Shown here one piece after another: positions 4,511 to 63,925 of a stretch of DNA of 64,000 bases. Every line of letters starts with the position of its first letter. Position 1 is the stretch's first letter. The stretch covers positions 1-64,000 of the forward strand of contig NEWT02000014.1 of the NCBI GenBank assembly GCA_002869925.2. The letters run 5' to 3'. The translations under genes and the position numbers were made by a program. The notes under the pieces are model-generated. The model saw nothing but the letters and a program-made list of their open reading frames with translations, was not told the DNA's origin and searched no databases. The stretch comes from Nitrospira sp. CG24A (lineage in GTDB: Bacteria > Nitrospirota > Nitrospiria > Nitrospirales > Nitrospiraceae).

Positions 4511-8494
<3,984 letters not shown>

Positions 8495-8543
8495 CCCATT
8501 TGTGTGCCGGCCATAGTGGTCGGTATCAGAGGAGGTCACTACC

Positions 8544-12719
<4,176 letters not shown>

Positions 12720-12745
12720 TTTACGCATTCGGTGATTAAGAAGGC

Positions 12746-12774
12746 TTGACACCGCGATCAATGCTCATTACAAT
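12746..12774 (+). promoter_or_regulatory. Sigma70-type promoter for rpsL (TTGACA-N17-TACAAT)
   Basis: Perfect -35 TTGACA (12746-12751), 17-bp spacer, TACAAT (12769-12774) in the rpoC-rpsL gap. Confidence 0.7.
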
Positions 12775-12843
12775 CCACCGGCTTTGCACTTGAACAAATG
12801 AGTGCAACAGTCAAACCGTGCAGAAGATGAGAGTGATGTACTA

Positions 12844-13215
12844 ATGCCGACAATTAATCAGTTAGTCAGAAAAGGCCGCAAGCTGGCACACGCGAAAACG
12901 AAAAGCCCTGCGCTCAAATCCTGTCCGCAGAAGCGCGGCGTGTGTCTTCGTGTGTATACGTCAACGCCGAAGAAGCCGAACTCCGCGTTGCGTAAAGTCG
13001 CGCGTGTTCGATTAACGAACGGGATGGAAGTGACGACATACATCCCGGGTGTCGGGCACAACCTCCAGGAGCACTCCATTGTGCTTGTGCGCGGCGGCCG
13101 TGTAAAGGACTTGCCGGGTGTGCGTTATCACATCGTTAGAGGGGCGCTTGATGCTGTTGGTGTGGCGGATCGAAAACAGAGTCGTTCGAAGTATGGAGCG
13201 AAGCGGCCGAAGTAA
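12844..13215 (+). CDS. rpsL: 30S ribosomal protein S12
   Basis: [63 protein letters not shown]. Confidence 0.98.
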
Positions 13216-13253
13216 GCGTGAATCACCGTTGGTAACGAGAGAGTGAATGACAC

Positions 13254-13724
13254 ATGCCAAGGACTAGATTTTTAGATCATCGTGACCCCCTCCCTGATGT
13301 ACGATATCGCGATAAGCTCGTCGGGAAGTTTTTGAATATTTTGATGTCGGGTGGAAAGAAGAGCACGGCCGAGCGTATTTGCTACGGAGCGTTCGATGTG
13401 ATTCAGGAGAAAACTGGTAACGATCCACTCAAGGTATTTCGGTCAGCGATTGATAATGTGAAGCCGGTTGTTGAGGTGAAGTCCCGTCGAGTGGGCGGTG
13501 CTTCGTATCAGGTGCCGGTAGAAATTCGTCCGGCTCGCCGGATGTCGCTGGCGCTTCGATGGCTGGCGGAGTATTCGCGGACTCGCGGCGGTAAGAGTAT
13601 GCGAGAGAAGCTCGCGGCTGAGTTGCTGGATGCCTCGAACAATACGGGGGCGGCGGTGAAGAAGCGGGAAGACGTGCATCGAATGGCGGAAGCCAATAAG
13701 GCATTCGCGCACTATCGTTGGTAG
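13254..13724 (+). CDS. rpsG: 30S ribosomal protein S7
   Basis: [42 protein letters not shown]...[13 protein letters not shown]. Confidence 0.98.
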
Positions 13725-13738
13725 CGTCGTTCTGTGCT

Positions 13739-13810
13739 GCAGCTGGGCCGTGCTGCGACTCGCTTATGCGGGTGATTATTAAGTCGCAGCGTCTCACTGG
13801 CCCTGGCTGC
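13739..13810 (+). promoter_or_regulatory. Two-tier stem-loop in the rpsG-fusA intergenic region
   Basis: Inner perfect 9-bp stem GCTGCGACT (13752-13760)/AGTCGCAGC (13782-13790). Outer stem GCAGC.GGGCC (13739-13749)/GGCCC..GCTGC (13799-13810). Confidence 0.55.
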
Positions 13811-13836
13811 GGCATCTATATTTTTAGGGGAAGTAC

Positions 13837-15918
13837 GTGGCGCGTCAATCACCATTAGAGCTAACTCGGAACATCGGCATCATGGCTCACATTGATGCCG
13901 GGAAGACGACAACCACTGAGCGCATCCTCTTCTACACTGGGATCTCACACAAGATGGGTGAGGTTCATGAAGGTGCCGCGACAATGGATTGGATGGAGCA
14001 GGAGCGGGAGCGCGGCATTACAATTACGGCCGCTGCGACGACCTGTTTCTGGCGCGACCATCGCATCAATATTATCGATACTCCGGGCCACGTTGATTTT
14101 ACGATTGAAGTCGAACGGTCGCTTCGTGTGCTCGATGGAGCTGTGGCAGTGTTTGATTCCGTGCAGGGGGTTGAGCCGCAATCTGAGACAGTCTGGCGGC
14201 AGGCGGATAAGTATAATGTGCCGAGGATCGCGTTCATGAACAAAATGGACCGAATCGGCGCAGATTTTTATGCCAGCGTTCAGACGATGATCGATCGGTT
14301 GGGGGCGAATCCTGTTCCGATCCAAATCCCTATCGGTCGAGAGTCTGAGTATAAAGGGTCGATCGATCTCGTGACCATGAAGGCCTATGTATATGACGAT
14401 GAGACGCTCGGCGCTAAGTACATCGTCAAGGATATTCCTGCCGATCTACTAGACCGAGCCAAAGAATATCGAGATAAGATGCTGGATGCAGTTGCTGAGT
14501 TTGACGAGCAAGCCATGGACAAGTATCTCAATGGCCAACCCTTGACGGAAGAGGAAGTCCGCAGAGCTATTCGAGCTGGCGTGATTTCGATGAAGATGAC
14601 CCCTATTTTATGCGGGTCGGCTTTCAAGAATAAGGGTGTACAGCAGTTGTTGGATGGAGTTGTGGATTTCCTTCCGTCGCCACTTGATGTTGAATCAGTG
14701 ACCGGGATTGATCCGAATACCGAACAGGAAGTGAAGCGACGTCCGTCAGATAGCGAGCCGTTCGCAGCCTTAGCCTTCAAGATTATGACAGATCCGTTTG
14801 CGGGGCAGCTCACTTTTTTGCGGGTCTATTCGGGTACCCTGAAAACGGGAACGTCTGTCTCGAATGTAACGAAGGGGACAAGGGATCGCGTCGGACGCCT
14901 TCTGAAGATGCATGCAAACAAGCGGGAAGATATTGATGTCGCCTATGCGGGTGACATTGTTGCGGCCGTCGGACTAAAAGGGGCAACGACGGGAGACACG
15001 CTAGCAGATGAAAAACAGCCGGTTTTGCTCGAAGTGATGAAGTTTCCTGAGCCGGTCATTGCAATGGCGATTGAGCCAAAAACCAAACAAGATCAAGAGA
15101 AGATGGGGTTCGCCTTACAGAAGTTAGCGCAGGAAGATCCATCGTTCCGGGTGAAGACGGATGAAGAGACCGCGCAGACTATCATTGCTGGGATGGGGGA
15201 ACTGCATCTGGAAATCATCGTTGATCGCATGCTGCGTGAATTCAAGGTGGAGGCCAATGTCGGAAAGCCGGAGGTGGCCTTTCGGGAAACGATTCGCAAG
15301 AAGGCTGAAGCTGAGGCGAAATACATTAAGCAGACCGGTGGTCGTGGCCAGTACGGACATGTCGTGTTGACGGTCGAGCCTGCCGAATCAGGCAAGGGCT
15401 TAGAGTTCATCAATAAGACCGTCGGCGGCTCTATTCCGCGAGAATTCATCCCGGCGATCGAAAAGGGTGTGAAGGAGCGGCTTGATTCTGGCGTCATCGC
15501 GGGTTATCCGCTTCGCGATGTTCGGGTCATGGTGATTGATGGGTCGTTTCATGACGTCGACTCTAACGAAATGGCATTTAAAATTGCCGGCTCGATGGCA
15601 TTCGTCGATGCCTGCAAGAAAGCTGATCCTGTCTTGCTTGAGCCGATCATGAAGGTAGAGGTTGTGGTGCCTCAGGATTTTATGGGCGATGTGATCGGCA
15701 ATTTGAACGGTCGTCGTGGGAAGATTCAAGGCATGAAGGCGCGAGCGGCCGCTCAGGTCATCGATGCATCTGTGCCACTTAGCGAAATGTTTGGATATGC
15801 AACCGATCTTCGCTCTCGAACTCAGGGCCGTGCCACCTATAGTATGGAATTCGACCGATATGATCCGGTGCCCAGGCAGATTTCAGAGGCCATCATTGCC
15901 AAGTATCGGGGTGAGTAG
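13837..15918 (+). CDS. fusA: Elongation factor G
   Basis: GTG start; [24 protein letters not shown]...[46 protein letters not shown]. Confidence 0.98.
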
Positions 15919-15957
15919 TCGCATTGATTTTTGAGTGAGGACGGAAGGGAGCGAGGT

Positions 15958-17163
<1,206 letters not shown>

Positions 17164-30273: not shown

Positions 30274-30657
30274 ATGAGCATTAAAAAAGGAAAGAAGAAA
30301 GAGCGCCGGATCGTGCAAAGCGGGGTCGCCCACGTCCAGGCGTCATTCAACAACACGATTGTCACGATTACCGACATGAGCGGCAACACAATTGTCTGGG
30401 CAAGTTCGGGGAACCAAGGATTCAAGGGTTCTCGAAAAAGTACGCCATTTGCCGCTCAGCGTGCTGGTGAAGCGGCTGCCAGGAAGGCGATGGAGAGCGG
30501 AATGCGCACAGTGGATGTCTATGTGAATGGCCCAGGGTCTGGTCGTGAATCGGCGATCAGATCTCTTCAGGCTGCTGGATTGAGGATCCATATGATTCGC
30601 GATGTGACCCCAATTCCACACAACGGATGCCGCCCACCTAAGCGGCGTCGTGTGTAG
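30274..30657 (+). CDS. rpsK: 30S ribosomal protein S11
   Basis: [46 protein letters not shown]...[18 protein letters not shown]. Confidence 0.98.
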
Positions 30658-30738
30658 TTCCGTATATCAAGAGATGTGAAGATACAAGATTTCTTGGGCG
30701 CACCATCATGGTGATGTCCGGTAACTGGAGGTAGAGCA

Positions 30739-31365
30739 GTGGCAAAGTATCGTGGCCCCGTTTGTCGGTTGTGTCGGCGAGAGGGTGAGAAGTTGTTCCT
30801 GAAAGGCTCACGCTGTATGACAGAAAAATGCGCCATCGAGCGACGGAGCTATCCTCCTGGACAGCATGGTCAAAAACGCCCGAGGAACTCAGAGTACAGT
30901 ACCCAGCTCAGAGAAAAACAAAAGCTACGCAGAATCTATGGCCTCATGGAATGCCAGTTCCGTGGCGTATTTGAGCGTGCGGAGCGCCAGTCCGGTATTA
31001 CCGGTGAAGTGCTCTTGCGGTTGCTGGAATGCCGGCTGGATAATGTGGCCTACCGACTCGGATTCGGCGCCTCGCGGAAAGAAGCCAGACAACTTGTGAG
31101 CCATGGACATTTGACCATGAATGGTCGGAAGATTAATGTGCCAGGCGCGCAGGTGAAGGCAGGTGACGTCATCAGCATTCGTGAGCGAAGTCGCACGTTG
31201 ATTTCGATCCAGGCCGCGTTAGATGCCGTTGACGGTCGAGGCATTCCTGAGTGGTTGGAGCTCGACAAGACAGCGTTTAAAGGCATGGTACGTGCGTTGC
31301 CGTCGAAAGACCAGATTTCGCTGCCAGTCAACGAGCAGATGGTGGTGGAGTTGTATTCAAGATAG
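30739..31365 (+). CDS. rpsD: 30S ribosomal protein S4
   Basis: GTG start; AKYRGPVCRLCRREGEKLFLKGSRCMTEKCAIERRSYPPGQHG...LRRIYGLMECQFRGVFERA. Confidence 0.97.
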   Translation: MAKYRGPVCRLCRREGEKLFLKGSRCMTEKCAIERRSYPPGQHGQKRPRNSEYSTQLREKQKLRRIYGLMECQFRGVFERAERQSGITGEVLLRLLECRLDNVAYRLGFGASRKEARQLVSHGHLTMNGRKINVPGAQVKAGDVISIRERSRTLISIQAALDAVDGRGIPEWLELDKTAFKGMVRALPSKDQISLPVNEQMVVELYSR

Positions 31366-31452
31366 AAGCGGACCTGGGGGAAGGGGAGTTAGTCTCTGCG
31401 GCAAACAAATGCTGATCAGGGGTTGGCTACTCGATGAGATGAAGGGGGAGTC

Positions 31453-32454
31453 ATGATTAAAGCGATGAAAGACTTTCAGATCCCGATGCGGGTGGAGGTC
31501 GACAAAGATACACAAAACCAAACGTTCGGAAGGTTTACCACAGAGGCCTATGAACGTGGGTTTGGGACGACGGTCGGTAATGCCTTACGGCGTGTACTGT
31601 TATCGTCGCTCACGGGTGCGGCAGTGACCACTGTGAAAATCGAAGGGGTCCTGCACGAGTTTTCCACGATTCCAGGCATCACGGAAGATGTCACCTCCAT
31701 TATTTTGAATGTGAAAGGGTTGCGGCTTGCTGTGCATACGGATAAGCCAAAGACGCTCCGTCTCAAAAAGAAGGGGCCTGGTGAAGCCAAGGGGTCCGAT
31801 ATTATTCACGATGCCGATGTGACTATTTTGACTCCGAACCTCCATATTGCCACGTTGGACAAGGATACCTCATTCGATATGGAAATGACGGTGAAGCATG
31901 GTCGAGGGTACGTGCCTGCCGAGCGTAACAAAGAGGAGGGGCTCCCGATTGGTGTGATCGCAATCGATTCGGTATTTTCACCCATCAAGCGTGTGAATTT
32001 TCACGTAGAGAATGCTCGTGTCGGTCGCATGACTGACTATGATAAATTGACCTTGGAAATCTGGACCGATGGGACCATCTCGCCTCGAGATGCCTTGTCT
32101 ACGGCAGCCAGCATTATGCGTGATCACATTGATATCTTTATCAATGCCGATGAGCGGGTGGAGGGACGTGCCGACCTCGGGGGTGATGAGGCACAACGTG
32201 AGGTCAATAAGCATCTGTTCCGTAGCGTCAACGAACTGGAGTTGTCTGTTCGTGCCGCAAATTGCTTGAAGAATGCGAACATCAAGACCATCGCCGATCT
32301 GGTCCAGAAGACAGAAGGCGAAATGCTGAGGACCAAGAATTTCGGCAAGAAATCGCTCAACGAAATTAAGGAAATCTTGACGGAGATGGGACTGGGGCTT
32401 GGCGTGAAACTTGATGCTGTGCAGCCGGTTGGTGGAAGTCCGAAGAGCGAGTAA
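31453..32454 (+). CDS. rpoA: DNA-directed RNA polymerase subunit alpha
   Basis: [55 protein letters not shown]-terminal [44 protein letters not shown] (as [13 protein letters not shown] in the ORF). Confidence 0.98.
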
Positions 32455-51115: not shown

Positions 51116-52408
51116 ATGAAGATCGATCTAAAGAGACGGTGGAAAATGTGTGCGGTGACTGGGGCCGCGATGGCGCTGGTGGCTGGGATGGCATCCACGG
51201 TCCCCAGTGCCTATGCCGGTGGCACGATCAAGGTTGACGACGACAAGTTTATTTCCATCGGAATGGGTACGCGTCTCAGTTTCAACGCGGTAGAAGATGG
51301 GTCAGCGAGCGGTGCGCAATACAGCAATAGTTTCGGTGTCAACAACGCTCGTATCTATATCAACGGCGGAATCCATAAATACGTGAAGTTCGCCTTCAAC
51401 ACCGAATGTTTTAACTGCGCGGTTGGCGGAGGTGGAAGTGCTGGAACTGGAGGTTCAAATCAATTCGGGAGGGATTCCAATATCGGCATACTCGACGCGA
51501 TCGGACAGTTCGAGTTTAATGAGCTCGTGAACTTCTGGGTCGGGCGTACCCTGGTGCCGACAGAGCGTGGTGAACTGAACGGTCCGTTCTACCACGCGGT
51601 GTTCGATGGGTTTAGGACCCCGTTTAACCAGGCCGATTTCAGCGGGAACTTTGGGGCAGGTGGGGCGGGTCTCTATGGCCGTGACAACGGCGCAGTCTTC
51701 TTCGGGAAAATTCATCCGGGCGGTACACATCTGCAATACGTCGCGTCGGTGTTCACGGGACTGCAGTCCAGCGCGACGGCAGGACCCAACCAAAGGAATA
51801 GCCTGAAGTACGCCGGACGTCTCACGTGGAACCTGCTCAACGATGAGTCGAATCCCGGGTACTACACCAGTGGTACCTACTATGGGGCAGCTGGTGATAT
51901 TTTAGCGCTTGCGGTAGGCGGAGAGTATCAGAATGCCGGTTCTGGTTCATTGGCAAATAAAAGCATCTTCGGGAGTGTCGTCACCGATCTCCTCTTTGAA
52001 AAAGTACTCCCGAACAACAATGGCGTGTTCACGGTCAACGCTGAGTTTAAACGGTATTGGGCACAGGATCTCGCCGCCTTCGGAAACGCGGATTGCTTTT
52101 GCATGTTTAGTGGAACGTCATGGACAGGGTACGCCTTGTATCTGTTTCCGCAGGAAGTCGGGATCGGAAGATTTCAGCCCTATGGAAGGTATACAGGCCT
52201 CAATAGTCAGTTCGCCGGCGCGCGCCAAGAGTTTGAACTCGGCATGAACTATGTCATTGCCGGCCACAATGCGCGCATCTCGACGTACTGGCGAACCGGC
52301 AACATCGGCGGCACCAGTACGTTCAACGGACAGAATTTGAACTACGCGCCCGGGTCGACAGGCCAGCATGTCGATTCGTTCCATGTGGCCTTACAGTTGC
52401 AGTATTAA
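51116..52408 (+). CDS. Outer-membrane porin (possibly an FmdC-like amide/urea porin)
   Basis: Sec signal peptide ending SAYA; GTRLSFNAVEDGSASGAQYSNSFGVNNARIYINGGIHKYVKFAFNTE; terminal aromatic residue (HVALQLQY). Adjacent to urtA. Confidence 0.75.
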   Translation: MKIDLKRRWKMCAVTGAAMALVAGMASTVPSAYAGGTIKVDDDKFISIGMGTRLSFNAVEDGSASGAQYSNSFGVNNARIYINGGIHKYVKFAFNTECFNCAVGGGGSAGTGGSNQFGRDSNIGILDAIGQFEFNELVNFWVGRTLVPTERGELNGPFYHAVFDGFRTPFNQADFSGNFGAGGAGLYGRDNGAVFFGKIHPGGTHLQYVASVFTGLQSSATAGPNQRNSLKYAGRLTWNLLNDESNPGYYTSGTYYGAAGDILALAVGGEYQNAGSGSLANKSIFGSVVTDLLFEKVLPNNNGVFTVNAEFKRYWAQDLAAFGNADCFCMFSGTSWTGYALYLFPQEVGIGRFQPYGRYTGLNSQFAGARQEFELGMNYVIAGHNARISTYWRTGNIGGTSTFNGQNLNYAPGSTGQHVDSFHVALQLQY

Positions 52409-52530: not shown

Positions 52531-52574
52531 CCGATCTGACCTAACATCTATGTGTGAGTGAAAGGAGACTGATC

Positions 52575-53942
52575 ATGGCAACGAATACACCTAATGAGGT
52601 AAACCCGGTTGAACCGGGCGGTACCGCAGAGAGCGAGGCTGGCCCTTCGCGGCGTGAGCTTCTGGTTAAGGGAGGCAAGGTCGTAGCCGGCATCGGGGTT
52701 GCTGCCCTGCTCGGCAACTTGGGCAACTGGGCCCTGTCCTATGCGGCGGACAAGGAGCCGATCAAGATCGGTATCCTGCATTCGCTCAGCGGCACCATGG
52801 CGATCAGCGAAGTGTCGTTGCGCGACACCGTGATGATGGCCGTCGAAGAAATCAACGCGAAGGGCGGGGTGATGGGCCGGATGATCAAGCCGGTCATCGT
52901 CGATCCGGCCTCGAACTGGGATCTCTTTGCCGAGAAAGCCAAGCAGCTCCTGCTGCAGGATAAGGTCTCGGTCACCTTCGGCTGTTGGACCTCAGTCAGT
53001 CGCAAATCGGTATTGCCGGTCTTCGAGAAGAACAACGGTCTGTTGTTCTATCCCGTGCAGTACGAGGGAGAAGAATGTTCGCGCAATGTCTTCTACACCG
53101 GCGCCGCCCCGAATCAGCAGGCCGTGCCGGCGGTGGATTATCTGATGAGCAAAGAGGGCGGCGGATTCACGAAGTTCTATCTGCTCGGCACCGATTACGT
53201 GTATCCCCGCACCACCAATAAAATTCTGCGGGCGATGCTCCTGGCAAAGAAAGTCCCAGCGGACAAGATCATGGAAGAGTACACGCCGTTCCACCATCAG
53301 GACTACCAAACCATCTGCGGCAAACTGAAGAAATTTGCCGCCGGCGGAGGGGCTGCCGTGATCAGCACGATCAACGGTGACAGCAACGTGCCGTTCTACA
53401 AGGAGTTTGCGAACCAAGGTTTGAGGGCAGAAGATGCCCCGATCATGGCCTTCAGCGTGGCAGAAGACGAGCTGCGCGGAATGGACACATCCGCGTTGGT
53501 CGGTCATCTGGCAGCCTGGAATTATTATCAAAGCGTCGATACGCCGCAGAACAAGCAGTTCGTGGCGAATTTCAAGGCCTACTGCAAGAAGAACAATTTG
53601 CCAGACGGCGACAAGCGGGTCACGGACGATCCGATCGAAGCCGCCTATTTCGGCGTCTATATCTGGAAGCAAGCCGTCGAAAAGGCCGCATCGGCTGACG
53701 TCGACAAGGTCAGAAAAGCCGTCTATGGCAGCAAGTTCCTGGCGCCGGGCGGCGAGATCATGATGGATGCCGCCAATCACCACACCTATAGGCCGGTGCT
53801 CATCGGTGAGATATTGGCGGACGGGCAGTTCAAGGTGGTTTCCCGTTCGCCGGGGCTGGTGAAGCCGGAACCCTGGAGTGAATTTACGAATCCGGAAAAG
53901 GGCTGCGACTGGGTCGGTCATCAAGGGACCTATCAAAAATAG
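52575..53942 (+). CDS. urtA: Urea ABC transporter substrate-binding protein UrtA (Tat-like signal)
   Basis: SRRELLVKGGKVVAGIGVAALL signal; PIKIGILHSLSGTMAISEVSLRDTVMMAVEEINAKGGVMGRMIKPVIVDPASNWDLFAEKAKQLL. Confidence 0.93.
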   Translation: MATNTPNEVNPVEPGGTAESEAGPSRRELLVKGGKVVAGIGVAALLGNLGNWALSYAADKEPIKIGILHSLSGTMAISEVSLRDTVMMAVEEINAKGGVMGRMIKPVIVDPASNWDLFAEKAKQLLLQDKVSVTFGCWTSVSRKSVLPVFEKNNGLLFYPVQYEGEECSRNVFYTGAAPNQQAVPAVDYLMSKEGGGFTKFYLLGTDYVYPRTTNKILRAMLLAKKVPADKIMEEYTPFHHQDYQTICGKLKKFAAGGGAAVISTINGDSNVPFYKEFANQGLRAEDAPIMAFSVAEDELRGMDTSALVGHLAAWNYYQSVDTPQNKQFVANFKAYCKKNNLPDGDKRVTDDPIEAAYFGVYIWKQAVEKAASADVDKVRKAVYGSKFLAPGGEIMMDAANHHTYRPVLIGEILADGQFKVVSRSPGLVKPEPWSEFTNPEKGCDWVGHQGTYQK

Positions 53943-54052: not shown

Positions 54053-55606
54053 ATGGTGATTTCTCTGGGGCGTACCCTTGTCGCGCTAGGTATCGTGGGA
54101 TTGCTCCTATTGTTCGAACCAAGCCGGGCGATCGCGGCGGATGGCCCTGTCTCCGCGCCTCCGACTGCTTCGGTAGAGCAAGCCCTTACTCAGGTTGCCA
54201 GCGAGGACGAATCAATCCGCCAGGCAGCTATTCGCCTCTTGATCGAACAGGGCGATGCCGGCCTGCTTCCGCGGCTGGAAGCGATCCGAGCCAATGCAAG
54301 CCGGAGCATCCGGCAGGCCATCAAGCCGCTCATGGATCTCCTCAAGAATCGAGCGAAACTCGCCAGCCCCGACAGCGACGTTCGCCGGTCGGCGGCGACA
54401 GATCTCGGTTCATCCGGTAATCCTTCGGCGATTGCATGGCTGGATGCCGCCAAGGTGAACGAGTCGAACAAGTGGGTGCGCTATACGATAGAAGAGTCTG
54501 CAGCGCTGCTCAGGCTCGCGTCGGGCGATCCATCGCTTAAAGTCGCGGCGGCCGAGAAGCTCGGCGAACTCCGCAGTGGAAATGCGGTGCCGGCTCTGAA
54601 AGCGCTGGTCGAGGCCGGCGCCGTCGCTGAGGCGACCGAACAGCAGAAGGTACTGGCGAAAACTGCCGACGCCGCGATTGACCGCATTGAAACCTGGGGC
54701 GATTGGGCGAATGCGATTGAAACGATCTTTCGCGGAATCAGCCTCAGTTCAATCCTCTTGATTATGTCGTTGGGCCTGGCAATTGTGTTCGGTTTGATGG
54801 GCGTCATCAATATGGCCCATGGCGAGTTGATGATGGTCGGCGCCTACGCCACGTTTGTCACGCAGCAATGTTTCACGGCCTGGTTTCCGCCAGATGTGTT
54901 TGACTGGTATTTTCCCGTGGCACTGCCGGTCGCGTTCCTTGCGGCCGCCGGCTCAGGATTCCTGCTGGAGACGACGGTCATCCGGTTTCTCTATGGGCGT
55001 CCGCTTGAAACCATGTTGGCGACCTGGGGCGTGAGTTTGGTTCTCATGCAGGCGGCCAGGGTCTATTTCGGCGACCTCACCGCCGTGGTTGCGCCAGGGC
55101 CGCTCAGAGGCGGCGCGCAAGTGTTGGTGGGGGTCTACCTGCCGTATAACCGCATATTCATCATCGCGCTCTCGATCGTCTGCGTGCTGGGGATTTACTT
55201 CGCGCTCTTTAAATCGAATCTCGGATTGCGCGTGCGGGCGGTGACGCAAAATCGAAATATGAGCGCCTGTCTCGGCATTCCGACCAGAAAAGTCGACTCC
55301 TATACCTTTGCGTTCGGGTCTGGGTTGGCGGGCATCGCCGGTTGGGCGCTCACGATGGTCGGGAACGTCGATCCGGGCCTCGGTCAGAACTATATCGTGG
55401 ATGCCTTTATGGTGGTGGTCACCGGAGGGGTTGGGAAACTGGCCGGTACGATCGTGGCCTCGCTGGGAATCGGCGGGTTGAACAAACTGATCGAGCCGGG
55501 GTTAGGCGCTGTGTACGGCAAGGTGTTGATCCTCGTGATGGTGATTCTGTTCTTGCAGTGGCGGCCGTCCGGTCTGTTTGCGATGAAGGGTCGCGATGCC
55601 GATTGA
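54053..55606 (+). CDS. urtB: Urea ABC transporter permease UrtB
   Basis: N-terminal HEAT-like region, then LSLGLAIVFGLMGVINMAHGELMMVGAYATFV...NYIVDAFMVVVTGGVGKLAGTIVASLGIGGLNKLIEP. Confidence 0.93.
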   Translation: MVISLGRTLVALGIVGLLLLFEPSRAIAADGPVSAPPTASVEQALTQVASEDESIRQAAIRLLIEQGDAGLLPRLEAIRANASRSIRQAIKPLMDLLKNRAKLASPDSDVRRSAATDLGSSGNPSAIAWLDAAKVNESNKWVRYTIEESAALLRLASGDPSLKVAAAEKLGELRSGNAVPALKALVEAGAVAEATEQQKVLAKTADAAIDRIETWGDWANAIETIFRGISLSSILLIMSLGLAIVFGLMGVINMAHGELMMVGAYATFVTQQCFTAWFPPDVFDWYFPVALPVAFLAAAGSGFLLETTVIRFLYGRPLETMLATWGVSLVLMQAARVYFGDLTAVVAPGPLRGGAQVLVGVYLPYNRIFIIALSIVCVLGIYFALFKSNLGLRVRAVTQNRNMSACLGIPTRKVDSYTFAFGSGLAGIAGWALTMVGNVDPGLGQNYIVDAFMVVVTGGVGKLAGTIVASLGIGGLNKLIEPGLGAVYGKVLILVMVILFLQWRPSGLFAMKGRDAD

Positions 55607-55615
55607 GAAAGGGAC

Positions 55616-55708
55616 GGGTGCAGCGCGAGTCCTTCCTTGCTCGCGGAACCCCCACGATGATGCGGTGGTCGTTCGACGCGCGCAGTGGAAAGGACTCGCG
55701 CCGCACCC
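55616..55708. repeat. Hairpin element copy A (variable arms + conserved core), urtB-urtC gap
   Basis: GGGTGCAGCGCGAGTCCTT pairs with AAGGACTCGCGCCGCACCC (1 mismatch). Core TTGCTCGCGGAACCCCCAC..GGTGGTCGTTCGACGCGCGCAGT. Confidence 0.75.
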
Positions 55709-55732
55709 TTGGGGAGTAGAGAGAAGACAACG

Positions 55733-56890
55733 ATGAGTGACGGAACAACAGACACGAATCGCAGTGGAGGTTTAGGCTTTGCAGTCGTAGGCGCCATTTT
55801 GCTCGTGGTCATGCCGCTCTTGAACCTCTTGCCGCCGGAAGATTCCTGGTTTCACCTCTCCGATTTCAGTCTGAACCGGTTCGGAAAATTTCTCGCCTTT
55901 GCGATATTAGCTCTCGGGCTCGATCTCATCTGGGGCTACACCGGCATCTTGAGCTTGGGGCAAGGAGTATTTTTCGGATTAGGCGCCTATTGCATGGGCA
56001 TGCACATGATGCTCACGATCGGAAAAGAGAGCGTCTATGGCAGCGATATGCCGGACTTCATGGTGTGGAACCAGGTCAAAGAGCTGCCGTTCTTCTGGAA
56101 GCCGTTCTATAGCTTTCCAGCTGCGGTCATTGGAGCACTCCTCGTGCCGATGGCATTTGCGTTAGTATTCGGGTTTTTCGCCTTCCGCAGCCGCATCAAA
56201 GGCGTCTATTTTGCGATCATTACACAGGCGCTGGCTCTCGCCGCCTGGCTGGTCTTCAACCGGAACGATACGAATCTCGGCGGCACGAACGGATTAACCG
56301 ATTTCAAGCAGGTGCTCGGGTATCGGCTCTCCGAGCCCGGTACGCAGCGGGCGTTATATGTTATTACCGTGCTCTGTCTCGGCGCGTCCTATCTCTTGTG
56401 CCAGTGGATCATTCGTTCGAGGGCCGGTCGGGTGCTGGTCGCTGTGCGTGATAGCGAAAAGCGCGTGGTCTTTTCCGGGTATACCCCGGCCAACTACAAG
56501 CTGTTCGTCTTTGTCGTATCTGCGGGCTTGGCTGGATTAGCAGGGTTGCTGTATGCCCCCCAAGTCGGCATCATCACGCCGGCGCAGATCGGGGTACTGC
56601 CGTCTCTTGAAATGGTCATTTGGGTGGCCGTGGGTGGCCGTGGCAGCCTGGCTGGGGCGGTCATAGGGGCCGTGAGCGTGAATTACGGCCGCAGTGTGCT
56701 CACGAATTATTTTCCTGAACTCTGGCCTTTCATGCTGGGCGGACTCTTTGTGTTGGTGGTGCTGTTATTCCCAGATGGGATGGTCGGCATGATTCGAAAA
56801 GGGAAGGATCTTCTGACTCGGCGTAAAGCTGGTGAAGAAAAGCCGATTGTGCCAAATCAGAAAGTAGTTGTGCCGGAGGGGAAGCGCTGA
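55733..56890 (+). CDS. urtC: Urea ABC transporter permease UrtC
   Basis: LGLDLIWGYTGILSLGQGVFFGLGAYCMGMHMML...GLAGLLYAPQVGIITPAQIGVLPSLEMVIWVAVGGRGSLAGAVIGA. Confidence 0.94.
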   Translation: MSDGTTDTNRSGGLGFAVVGAILLVVMPLLNLLPPEDSWFHLSDFSLNRFGKFLAFAILALGLDLIWGYTGILSLGQGVFFGLGAYCMGMHMMLTIGKESVYGSDMPDFMVWNQVKELPFFWKPFYSFPAAVIGALLVPMAFALVFGFFAFRSRIKGVYFAIITQALALAAWLVFNRNDTNLGGTNGLTDFKQVLGYRLSEPGTQRALYVITVLCLGASYLLCQWIIRSRAGRVLVAVRDSEKRVVFSGYTPANYKLFVFVVSAGLAGLAGLLYAPQVGIITPAQIGVLPSLEMVIWVAVGGRGSLAGAVIGAVSVNYGRSVLTNYFPELWPFMLGGLFVLVVLLFPDGMVGMIRKGKDLLTRRKAGEEKPIVPNQKVVVPEGKR

Positions 56891-56891
56891 G

Positions 56892-57668
56892 ATGGCCGAA
56901 CCAAGTTCCTTTCAAAATTCCATCATCTATCTCGATGGCGTGACCGTCGATTACGATGGCTTCAAGGCGTTGAACCACTTGACCTTCATGGTCGACTACA
57001 AGGAATTGCGCGTCGTCATCGGGCCGAATGGGGCGGGAAAGACGACGCTGTTGGATGTGATATGCGGGAAGACGAAACCAGCTGCCGGCCGTGTCGTCTT
57101 TGGCCAAGACAAGGAACTGACCGGGAAACATGCGGATGAAATCGTGAAGCTCGGCATCGGGCGAAAGTTCCAAGCGCCGTCCATCTATGGAAATCTGACC
57201 GTCTGGGAAAACCTCGACTTGTCGTTAAAACGGAGCAGCAAAGGCGTCTTCCCGACGTTGTTCGGAAAATCGACGGCGGAGGAACGGGCAAGGATCGAGG
57301 AAAATCTCGAAACGATCGGCCTGAAAGATTATGCGCATACCAGAGCCGGATCGCTGTCTCACGGTCAGAAGCAGTGGCTCGAAATCGGCATGGTGATTTT
57401 GCAAGATCCTTCGTTGCTCCTCGTCGACGAGCCGGTCGCGGGGATGACGGACAAGGAAACGGAACAGACGGGGCAATTGCTCCAATCGTTGGCGGAGAAG
57501 CACGCAATCATCGTCATCGAACACGATATGGAGTTCGTCCGGCAGATCGCCCGTATCGTGACGGTCTTGCACGAAGGCACCGTCATTTGCGAAGGCACCG
57601 TCGAGAAAGTGCAAGCGGACGCTCGCGTCAGAGAAATATATCTGGGCCGTCAAAAAGTGGCTCATTAG
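56892..57668 (+). CDS. urtD: Urea ABC transporter ATP-binding protein UrtD
   Basis: GPNGAGKTTLLDVICGKTKPAAGRVVFG...LSHGQKQWLEIGMVILQDPSLLLVDEPVAGMTDKETEQTGQLLQSLA. Confidence 0.94.
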   Translation: MAEPSSFQNSIIYLDGVTVDYDGFKALNHLTFMVDYKELRVVIGPNGAGKTTLLDVICGKTKPAAGRVVFGQDKELTGKHADEIVKLGIGRKFQAPSIYGNLTVWENLDLSLKRSSKGVFPTLFGKSTAEERARIEENLETIGLKDYAHTRAGSLSHGQKQWLEIGMVILQDPSLLLVDEPVAGMTDKETEQTGQLLQSLAEKHAIIVIEHDMEFVRQIARIVTVLHEGTVICEGTVEKVQADARVREIYLGRQKVAH

Positions 57669-57794
57669 CAGGATGCTGAAAAAGCCCGTCAGCGGCGTTC
57701 TCCCCTTGAACGCATCCTCAACGTACCCCAGAGGGTACGCCTCCGGTGCGTTCGGCGGCTGCGGCCTTGCTGACGGCCTTTTTGAGCATCCTGC
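57668..57794. repeat. Branched inverted-repeat element between urtD and urtE
   Basis: 26-nt terminal arms GCAGGATGCTGAAAAAGCCCGTCAGC/GCTGACGGCCTTTTTGAGCATCCTGC (24/26 complementary). Internal hairpins GCGTTC-N7-GAACGC (57696-57713) and CGTACCC-CAGA-GGGTACG (57722-57739). Confidence 0.85.
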
Positions 57795-57842: not shown

Positions 57843-58553
57843 ATGCTGCAGCTTGACAAAATCAACGCCTACTACGGTGAAAGTCACATTCTTCGGGATG
57901 TGTCCTTTACCATCGACTCGGGTGAGGTGGTGTGTCTCATGGGCCGGAATGGTGTCGGTAAGACGACCACCCTGAAAGTATTGACCGGTCTCCTGCCTGC
58001 GAGATCGGGGCGGATGATGTTCGATGGGAAGGATGTCACGAAGGCGCCGACCGATCAGAGAGCGCGCAGCGGGTTGGCTTGCGTGCCGCAGGGGCGGGAG
58101 ATCCTTCCTCACTTGACGGTTCGTGAGAATTTGCTGCTCGGGTTCTGGGCGAGGTCGGACAAGCCGAACGGGACGGTCGAGAAGACCGCGTTCGACGAAG
58201 TCTACCACCTCTTCCCTAAGCTCACACAAATTCTCAATCGTCCGGGCGGTGTCCTGAGCGGCGGTGAGCAGCAGCAGTTAGCGATCGGCCGTGCGATCCT
58301 GTCGAATCCCAAGCTGCTCCTGCTCGATGAGCCGACTGAAGGCATTCAGCCTTCGATCGTGGACCAGATCGAAGACGTGATCATCGGATTCAAAAATCAG
58401 CGCCGGTTCGCCATTTTGCTGGTCGAGCAGGGGCTCCACTTTGCCGCTCGCTTGGCAGAGAAGTATGTGGTGATGGCGAAAGGGGCGGTGGTGGTGGCGG
58501 GAAAAAGTACTGAGTTGACAGCGGAACAGGTGAAGCAGTACTTGACGGTGTGA
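57843..58553 (+). CDS. urtE: Urea ABC transporter ATP-binding protein UrtE
   Basis: MLQLDKINAYYGESHILRDVSFTIDSGEVVCLMGRNGVGKTTTLKVLTGLL...LSGGEQQQLAIGRAILSNPKLLLLDEPTEGIQPSIVDQIEDVI. Confidence 0.94.
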   Translation: MLQLDKINAYYGESHILRDVSFTIDSGEVVCLMGRNGVGKTTTLKVLTGLLPARSGRMMFDGKDVTKAPTDQRARSGLACVPQGREILPHLTVRENLLLGFWARSDKPNGTVEKTAFDEVYHLFPKLTQILNRPGGVLSGGEQQQLAIGRAILSNPKLLLLDEPTEGIQPSIVDQIEDVIIGFKNQRRFAILLVEQGLHFAARLAEKYVVMAKGAVVVAGKSTELTAEQVKQYLTV

Positions 58554-58558
58554 TTTGA

Positions 58559-58655
58559 GGCCAGGGGACAGGAGCGTTCTCCTGCTCGCGCAACGCGCGG
58601 TCTCGGAAGACCCTCGTTGGACGCGCGCATTAGAGAACACTCCTGTCTCCTGGCC
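58559..58655. repeat. Hairpin element copy B, downstream of urtE
   Basis: 23-position stem GGCCAGGGGACAGGAGCGTTCTC/GAGAACACTCCTGTCTCCTGGCC (one wobble, one mismatch). Core TGCTCGCGCAACGCGC-GGTCT-CGGA-AGACC-CTCGTTGGACGCGCGCA. Confidence 0.8.
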
Positions 58656-58700: not shown

Positions 58701-58792
58701 GGGGTGGTCAGGATGACTTCTTTGCTCGCAGAACGCGCACGATCAGAATGTGCTCGTTCGATGCGCGCAGTTGAAGTCACCCCGACCACCCC
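58701..58792. repeat. Hairpin element copy C, downstream of urtE
   Basis: GGGGTGGTCAGGATGACTTC/GAAGTCACCCCGACCACCCC (18/20 paired). Core TTTGCTCGCAGAACGCGCAC..GTGCTCGTTCGATGCGCGCAG. Confidence 0.8.
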
Positions 58793-58889: not shown

Positions 58890-58979
58890 ATGCATCTGAC
58901 ACCGAGAGAACAAGAGAAGCTTCTGATCTATGTCGCGGCGAATTTGGCTAAGGAACGGAAGGCGCGTGGATTGAAATAA
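58890..58979 (+). pseudogene. ureA: Truncated remnant of urease gamma subunit (N-terminal 29 codons)
   Basis: ATG CAT CTG ACA CCG... = MHLTPREQEKLLIYVAANLAKERKARGLK*, matching the conserved UreA N-terminus, then stop and unrelated sequence. Confidence 0.82.
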
Positions 58980-59052
58980 CAGACCCTGGGATTCCAAGTC
59001 GTCTACCTGTTCTAAGAGCGGGAAGACAGTTATCGGTTGAATGGTGAGATGC

Positions 59053-59101
59053 CGCTCCCTTCGTGGACCAGTCCACGAAGGGAGCGCTTACTAGAAGCGC
59101 T
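59053..59101. repeat. Two overlapping, mutually exclusive hairpins upstream of amtB
   Basis: CGCTCCCTTCGTGGAC-CA-GTCCACGAAGGGAGCG (59053-59086) and AGCGCTT-ACTAG-AAGCGCT (59083-59101) share AGCG. Confidence 0.75.
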
Positions 59102-59369: not shown

Positions 59370-60731
59370 ATGTCATCGCATATGATGAGCAGTATGAAGA
59401 AGATTCTGCCGGTCCTCCTGATCTGCTGTACCGTCATGTTGGTGGGAGGGATGGTTCTCAATGTGTCGGATGTCGCAGCAGAAGATGCCGCACCGGCTGT
59501 ACTCAAGGTCGATACGGGAGACACCGCATGGATCCTTGCCTCCTCGGCGCTGGTGATGATGATGACGTTGCCGGGACTGGCGCTCTTTTATGGTGGACTC
59601 ACCAGGCAAAAAAATATCCTGAGTACGGTGTTGCATAGCTTTATCTGTCTCTGTCTCGCCAGCATCGCGTGGGTGTTGTTCGGATACAGCCTTTCTTTTG
59701 GCCCCGATGTCGGTGGGTTCATCGGGAACTTCGATTGGGCATTCTTGCGAGGGGTAGGAGCTGATCCTCATCCCGTCTATGGTCCCACGCTTCCCCACGA
59801 AGTCTTCATGATGTACCAGATGATGTTCGCCGCCATTACCCCGGCGCTGATGACGGGGGCTATTGCGGAACGCATCAGGTTCTCCTCCATGCTGTGGTTT
59901 CTCGGCATCTGGTCGATCGTGGTGTACTATCCTGTCTGCCATTGGATTTGGGGAGGCGGATGGCTGGCGCAGATGGGCGCATTAGACTTTGCCGGTGGCG
60001 CAGTCGTGCACGTCAGTTCTGCCACGTCTGCCTTGGTCGCCTGTATTATGCTTGGAAAGCGCATGGGCTATCCGAACACTCCTATGCCTCCGCATAATCT
60101 CCCGATCATGTTGTTGGGCGCGGGTCTGCTCTGGTTCGGCTGGTTCGGGTTCAACGCGGGCAGTGCGTTGGGTGCGAATGGGCTGGCGGCCAGCGCCTTC
60201 GTGGCGACCCACATCGCAGCCTGTGTCGCGACGGTGGTCTGGATGCTGATCGAGTGGGCGCATCGCGGGAAGCCCACGGCGCTCGGTTGTGCGACCGGAG
60301 CCATCGCTGGTTTGGCTACCATTACTCCTGCTGCCGGGTTTGTGGGGTTGTTCGGAGCGATCATGATCGGCATCGCGGCTGGAATTGTCTGTTATATCTG
60401 TGTCAGCATCCTGAAGCCGGCCTTGGGTTTCGACGATTCGCTCGATGTGGTGGGGGTTCACGGTGTGGGCGGAGCGCTCGGCCTCGTTGGGGCAGGTTTA
60501 TTTGCGTCGAAGGCGATCAATGCTGCCGGGAACGATGGGCTGTTCTTTGGCAATCCAAAACTCTTGATGGTTCAGCTCCTCATGATCGGCGCGGTAGCGG
60601 GCTTTTCTATGATCTGTACCTGGATTATTCTTAAAATAATCGACGTGGTTATGGGCCTGCGTGTGACGCAAGATGAAGAACAAGAAGGCTTGGATGTCAG
60701 TCAGCACGGTGAGAAGGCCTATCACGTTTGA
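59370..60731 (+). CDS. amtB: Ammonium transporter
   Basis: DTAWILASSALVMMMTLPGLALFYGGLTRQKNILSTVLHSF...GGAVVHVSSATSALVACIMLGKR...GVHGVGGALGLVGAGLFA; N-terminal signal peptide. Confidence 0.95.
   Translation: MSSHMMSSMKKILPVLLICCTVMLVGGMVLNVSDVAAEDAAPAVLKVDTGDTAWILASSALVMMMTLPGLALFYGGLTRQKNILSTVLHSFICLCLASIAWVLFGYSLSFGPDVGGFIGNFDWAFLRGVGADPHPVYGPTLPHEVFMMYQMMFAAITPALMTGAIAERIRFSSMLWFLGIWSIVVYYPVCHWIWGGGWLAQMGALDFAGGAVVHVSSATSALVACIMLGKRMGYPNTPMPPHNLPIMLLGAGLLWFGWFGFNAGSALGANGLAASAFVATHIAACVATVVWMLIEWAHRGKPTALGCATGAIAGLATITPAAGFVGLFGAIMIGIAAGIVCYICVSILKPALGFDDSLDVVGVHGVGGALGLVGAGLFASKAINAAGNDGLFFGNPKLLMVQLLMIGAVAGFSMICTWIILKIIDVVMGLRVTQDEEQEGLDVSQHGEKAYHV

Positions 60732-60775: not shown

Positions 60776-63925
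<3,150 letters not shown>

Follow-up and report, generated by a model that had tools for sequence, protein, structure and literature searches.

A nitrogen-metabolism cluster comprising ure, urt, nadE, glnB, glnD, and an ammonium transporter has been described in Nitrospira (Koch et al. 2018, PMC6311188). Within the Nitrospirales, most members are described as urease-positive, natural urease-negative ones exist (PMC12342949), and the portions of the literature covered by our search mention no urease-lacking clade B comammox. The presence or absence of urease in comammox metagenome-assembled genomes (MAGs) is used to argue niche differences. Our window, the whole stretch of 64,000 nucleotides analyzed here (positions 1 to 64,000 of contig NEWT02000014.1 from Nitrospira sp. 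CG24A), resembles the cluster of Koch et al. in that its left part, urtABCDE, and its right part, amtB-glnB-glnD, are intact, but differs from it in lacking the middle, from codon 30 of ureA through nadE to a porin gene. The genome shares the absence of urease genes with the natural urease-negative Nitrospirales; however, while 10 of the 11 ureA-negative congeners that we tested keep nadE (the eleventh being 71% complete), this genome is without it.

Host genome and features of the locus

Judged by its sequence, the genome is that of a metagenome-derived, clade B-type comammox Nitrospira, i.e. a complete nitrifier: amoA is present (PF02461, E=2e-92) and the nearest loci belong to clade B-type MAGs (RSF6, RSF11, RSF48, Rifle clade B, and CG24E), a placement that follows from nearest kin and not from a tree. 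The genome is 95% complete, and eight stretches of exactly 100 N in the 397 kb sampled mark it as a scaffolded assembly. The RSF MAGs of Palomo et al., which stem from rapid sand filters, were produced by IDBA-UD co-assembly of Illumina short reads, many binners, and re-assembly, with reference-guided scaffolding by MeDuSa (PMC8751384). From its kinship to these MAGs and its 100-N gaps, we infer that the MAG studied here came from the same pipeline or study. The features at the right end of the window are as follows.

51116–52408, + strand: outer-membrane porin-like gene adjoining urtA (430-aa ORF, no Pfam match; 58–95% identical homologues precede urtA in several clade B loci)
52554–53942, + strand: urtA, substrate-binding protein of the urea ABC transporter, intact (TIGR03407, 575 bits vs cut-off 493; dN/dS 0.065 vs RSF6)
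54053–55606, + strand: urtB, permease, intact (TIGR03409, 391 bits vs cut-off 250)
55685–56890, + strand: urtC, permease, intact (TIGR03408, 449 bits vs cut-off 296)
56868–57668, + strand: urtD, ATPase, intact (TIGR03411, 363 bits vs cut-off 304)
57843–58553, + strand: urtE, ATPase, intact (TIGR03410, 305 bits vs cut-off 286; protein >99% identical to that of RSF6)
58890–58979, + strand: 5' fragment of ureA, codons 1–29 and a TAA formed by the junction (PF00547, NCBIfam; synonymous-only differences from RSF6)
58977..58978, no strand: junction, with the relatives' ureA to the left and the relatives' DNA upstream of amtB to the right
58980–59015, + strand: end of a BBP2-type porin gene, the last 11 codons (QTLGFQVVYLF) and the stop (precedes amtB in relatives; PF07642 in the full-length porin genes of the RSF6 and RSF11 loci, L143 and L144)
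59053–59087, + strand: strong hairpin with a 15-bp stem, between the porin stop and amtB (z −6.5; also in relatives, as inverted matches)
59370–60731, + strand: amtB, ammonium transporter, intact (TIGR00836, 465 bits; PF00909)
60834–61172, + strand: glnB, P-II regulatory protein (PF00543)
61169–63925, + strand: glnD, P-II uridylyltransferase (gene order shared with relatives)

All five subunits of the transporter score above the NCBIfam cut-offs for urea transport, giving a complete UrtABCDE. The dN/dS ratios of the urt genes all fall between 0.01 and 0.17 and were uninformative as a sign of relaxed selection. The hairpin is a possible terminator, which would lie between urt with the ureA fragment and amtB. 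Dispersed repeats of two families occur in the intergenic DNA of this region. One, of about 130 bp, lies between urtD and urtE (57665–57794), has dozens of copies in the genome (at least 95 matches, both strands counted), and is present also between the ure genes of relatives; the other consists of palindrome-like repeats of about 47–60 bp (58583–58629 and 58719–58776), with roughly 20 matches in the 397 kb sampled.

A ureA fragment joined to the end of a porin gene

The translation of 58890–58979 (+ strand) is MHLTPREQEKLLIYVAANLAKERKARGLK, corresponding to codons 1–29 of ureA with a stop directly after them. The fragment matches the Urease_gamma profile PF00547 at E=2e-9 over positions 1–29 of 99, positions 30–99 being absent, and the NCBIfam models of the urease gamma subunit at 1e-9 to 1e-10 with scores below the NCBIfam cut-offs; given these values, it is no chance match. 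The initial annotation, which read this stretch as a UreA N-terminus and noted that urt and ure clusters are often adjacent, is upheld as to the peptide, and relatives do have urt-ure at this place. The 29 residues are identical (29/29) in RSF6 and three other relatives, where the same codons begin a full ureA of about 100 aa, and the fragment lies directly downstream of urtABCDE just as ureA does in the Nitrospira urt-ure clusters of relatives. What sets the window apart from UreA (PF00547, TIGR00193) and from those clusters is the lack of ureA codons 30–100 and of ureBCFGD, so that it carries no functional urease gene. Between the fragment and RSF6 there are eight base differences in seven codons, and all seven codon differences are synonymous. 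The remnant is thus undecayed, which fits an omission from the assembly, or a deletion too young for changes to have gathered.

A separate conserved small protein, named in the initial annotation among the findings that would overturn its reading, is an extremely unlikely identity for the 29-aa ORF. In favor of that identity, the frame is open from a start codon and relatives conserve its sequence; however, in the relatives inspected, the same codons run on into ureA, which is full-length unless a contig end cuts it, and the stop in the window arises exactly at the breakpoint. We therefore rejected this candidate.

Alignment to relatives shows that the window tracks their ureA to 58975–58977, placing the breakpoint within one or two bases of the position 58976 proposed earlier, and that from 58978–58983 onward it tracks the DNA upstream of amtB. 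The sequence up to amtB, first taken to be unrelated, is in fact 87–89% identical to that of the closest relatives from 58978. The right side of the junction opens within the 3' codons of a porin gene (CAG ACC CTG GGA TTC CAA GTC GTC TAC CTG TTC TAA), and both breakpoints thus fall inside coding sequence, that of ureA and that of the porin gene. The junction is essentially blunt, contains no Ns, and lies outside the palindromic repeats that had been suggested as mediators of a deletion. Within 300 bp of the two points, the longest direct match in the five relatives is 8–9 bp and does not sit at the breakpoints. Since no longer match exists there and the palindromic repeats lie elsewhere, a repeat-mediated mechanism is unsupported, and we rejected it.

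The segment present in relatives

The comparison relatives are G007/RSF6 (L143), G028/RSF11 (L144), G019, G020, and G025. All five carry, on one contig each, the order urtABCDE-ureABCFGD-nadE-several genes-porin(s)-amtB-glnB-glnD, with urt, ure, nadE, amtB, glnB, and glnD in one orientation. Downstream of nadE, a gene for a protein of unknown family lies on the opposite strand (5/5 relatives); the genes that follow nadE include a eukaryotic-type carbonic anhydrase in RSF6, RSF11, and G020, and a DUF2490 protein, recognized by a Pfam match in RSF6 and by similar ORFs in RSF11, G020, and G025. One or two BBP2 porins directly precede amtB. The window has both ends of this gene order and none of the middle. 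The missing stretch, which extends from codon 30 of ureA to the last codons of the porin before amtB and includes ureBCFGD and nadE, measures 12,585 bp against RSF6, 13,851 bp against RSF11, and 12.3–14.2 kb over the five relatives. Thus, of the originally proposed deletion of ureABC-DFG after about 29 codons, the absence of the genes stands, the extent has to be widened to include nadE and everything up to the porin, and a genuine deletion is doubtful.

In a further clade B-type MAG (G013, locus L036), the interval is broken by contig ends, one after codon 48 of ureA and one in amtB, and nadE is missing, which suggests that the urtE-amtB interval is hard to assemble. In G027 (C3:31000-50900, L147), amtB occurs at the same locus as two overlapping partial copies flanking glnB-glnD, either through rearrangement or through assembly duplication. 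A plasmid search with the flanking intergenic DNA gave no match.

Urease and NAD synthesis in the assembled genome

The fragment at 58890–58979 is the sole PF00547 match in the whole genome (3.36 Mb, 40 contigs), and the assembled genome has no match to UreC (PF00449). A query of UreA, UreB, UreC, UreF, UreG, UreD, and NadE from a close relative, together with two proteins encoded further downstream there, recovered only the ureA fragment and unrelated paralogues, with no match to ureBCFGD; UreC, UreB, and the accessory genes of a functional urease operon were not found in the assembly. A DNA search with the segment missing relative to RSF6 returned, among 40 of 289 candidates, only the ~130-bp dispersed repeat and no unique part, the protein search being the stronger negative of the two. 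Intact ureABC are thus absent at this locus and were not found elsewhere in the assembled genome, and the idea that Urt feeds a urease encoded elsewhere finds no support inside the assembly.

NadE is likewise missing from the entire assembly. PF02540 has just a few weak matches, which we identified as GuaA (GMP synthase), LarE, and MnmA and rejected as a second NAD synthase; a full-length NadE query found only two nitrilase-type proteins at 27–30% in this genome. The assembly encodes NadA, which is the quinolinate synthase of de novo NAD synthesis, and no enzyme of the NAPRTase family (PncB or NadV) was found in it. To our knowledge, the cell as assembled would have no route to NAD. An NAD synthase profile match was obtained in all 14 control genomes, and NadE is found in 29 of 31 congeners; the two without it are 71% and 75% complete, and every congener more than 75% complete has it. 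No other NadE is assembled in our genome, of which about 5% is unseen.

Gap-less omissions in sister MAGs

As a control for artefacts, we compared the window's contig with contigs of the two nearest MAGs, RSF6 and RSF11. RSF6 joins two points that lie 1,803 bp apart inside rpoB (window 4747–6549). RSF11 lacks 3,001 bp that begin at the end of rpoB and reach into rpoC (window 8348–11348) and a further 1,669 bp across rpsK-rpsD-rpoA (window 30530–32198). None of the three joins contains Ns, and the skipped rpoB/rpoC DNA was not found anywhere in the RSF6 and RSF11 bins. These joins must be assembly artefacts in public reference genomes, because no cell can lose the genes that they cut. The same type of join thus occurs in essential genes of both sisters. 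The omissions resemble the ureA-porin junction of the window in being blunt and free of Ns, in keeping the flanking order, in affecting essential genes, and in that the omitted rpoB/rpoC DNA does not turn up elsewhere in the bin; they differ in size (1.7–3.0 kb vs about 13 kb in the window) and in the genes concerned, although they fall in the same contig stretch. The joins in rpoB and rpoB/rpoC (window 4511–12719) are located at about position 3384 in L195 (G007:C47) and about position 27928 in L200 (G028:C32).

Discussion

We consider it probable that the assembly omits about 13 kb, from codon 30 of ureA to the end of the porin gene, and abuts the flanks. The middle segment with urease and nadE would have been left unassembled or not binned, two contig ends would have been abutted in reference order, and the living organism would presumably still have urease and NadE. 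The ureA-porin join would then have arisen as the joins in the sister MAGs did. Such an omission accounts for the absence of an essential gene, for the preserved order, and for the undecayed fragment, and has its precedent in the sister MAGs. True loss of urease is doubtful because the missing segment holds nadE, no other NAD synthase is assembled, and NadA is kept, and because gap-less omissions of this type run through rpoB and rpoC in the sister MAGs. The ureA fragment with its missing neighbors is probably not a biological feature. A few observations weigh against omission. The weak points are that the junction contains no Ns and its longest shared direct match is 9 bp, and that in a genome 95% complete a 13-kb piece is usually assembled and binned. 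A de Bruijn assembler is not expected to make such a junction without a shared k-mer unless some reads span it. In addition, rpoB/rpoC and the ribosomal genes are uninterrupted elsewhere on the contig, and collinearity with relatives largely holds to about 72 kb.

That urease (and NAD synthase) was truly lost here, with Urt serving another purpose and NAD obtained via precursors from neighbors or through an unseen NadE, is quite unlikely in our judgment. One form of biological explanation, a genuine recent deletion with nadE (and perhaps the ure genes) in the ~5% of the genome that is unassembled, either because the segment moved or because an unrelated nadE was acquired, so that Urt was kept and urease lost or relocated, would account for a precise, N-free junction lacking repeat homology, as expected for end-joining. 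The region has been described as flexible in Nitrospira (PMC6311188), and the rearranged amtB copies of G027 lie at the same locus. We nevertheless regard it as unlikely, as it would require relocation to the small portion that escaped assembly, no coding DNA of the segment was found in the assembled part, and both ureA and urt are undecayed. Taken at face value, with intact urt and no UreC, NadE, or NAPRTase-family enzyme, the assembly describes a urease-negative comammox that has lost urease together with nadE, imports urea or another small amide, and relies on neighbors for NAD precursors. This is very unlikely, given the NAD synthase matches in every control genome and the presence of NadE in all the more complete congeners, and given that the retained NadA would be part of a pathway leading nowhere. 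Loss of NadE in a free-living autotroph would be extraordinary. There is a similarly small chance that the window records a deletion variant in a mixed population, where the assembler followed the junction and other cells keep the segment. Such a variant would account for the lack of both Ns and shared k-mers at the junction, and in sand filters, coexisting comammox species show notable microdiversity (PMC8751384), if the sample was of that kind; however, a variant lacking nadE should not persist, and one would expect a contig break at the branch if an intact variant were common.

Omission of the segment by the assembly would have a practical consequence, as a 95%-complete MAG would be counted as a comammox that lacks urease and has an orphan urea transporter. 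Were the loss true, it would be surprising to find a chemoautotroph that carries an orphan urea transporter and lacks NAD synthesis. Before the loss of a trait is claimed, it is cheap to check whether a neighboring essential gene has gone along with the trait gene.

In G020 (C9:2-2421 and 10605-16499), the two parts of a split rpoB/rpoC lie apart on a single contig and overlap by 126 bp, the pattern of a wrongly circularized contig. For the last 7.4 kb of the contig that holds our window (L102, G000:C6, beyond contig position 72327), the corresponding RSF6 contig gave no match reaching 300 bp; genes for a sigma-54-type regulator and a TPR protein lie there.
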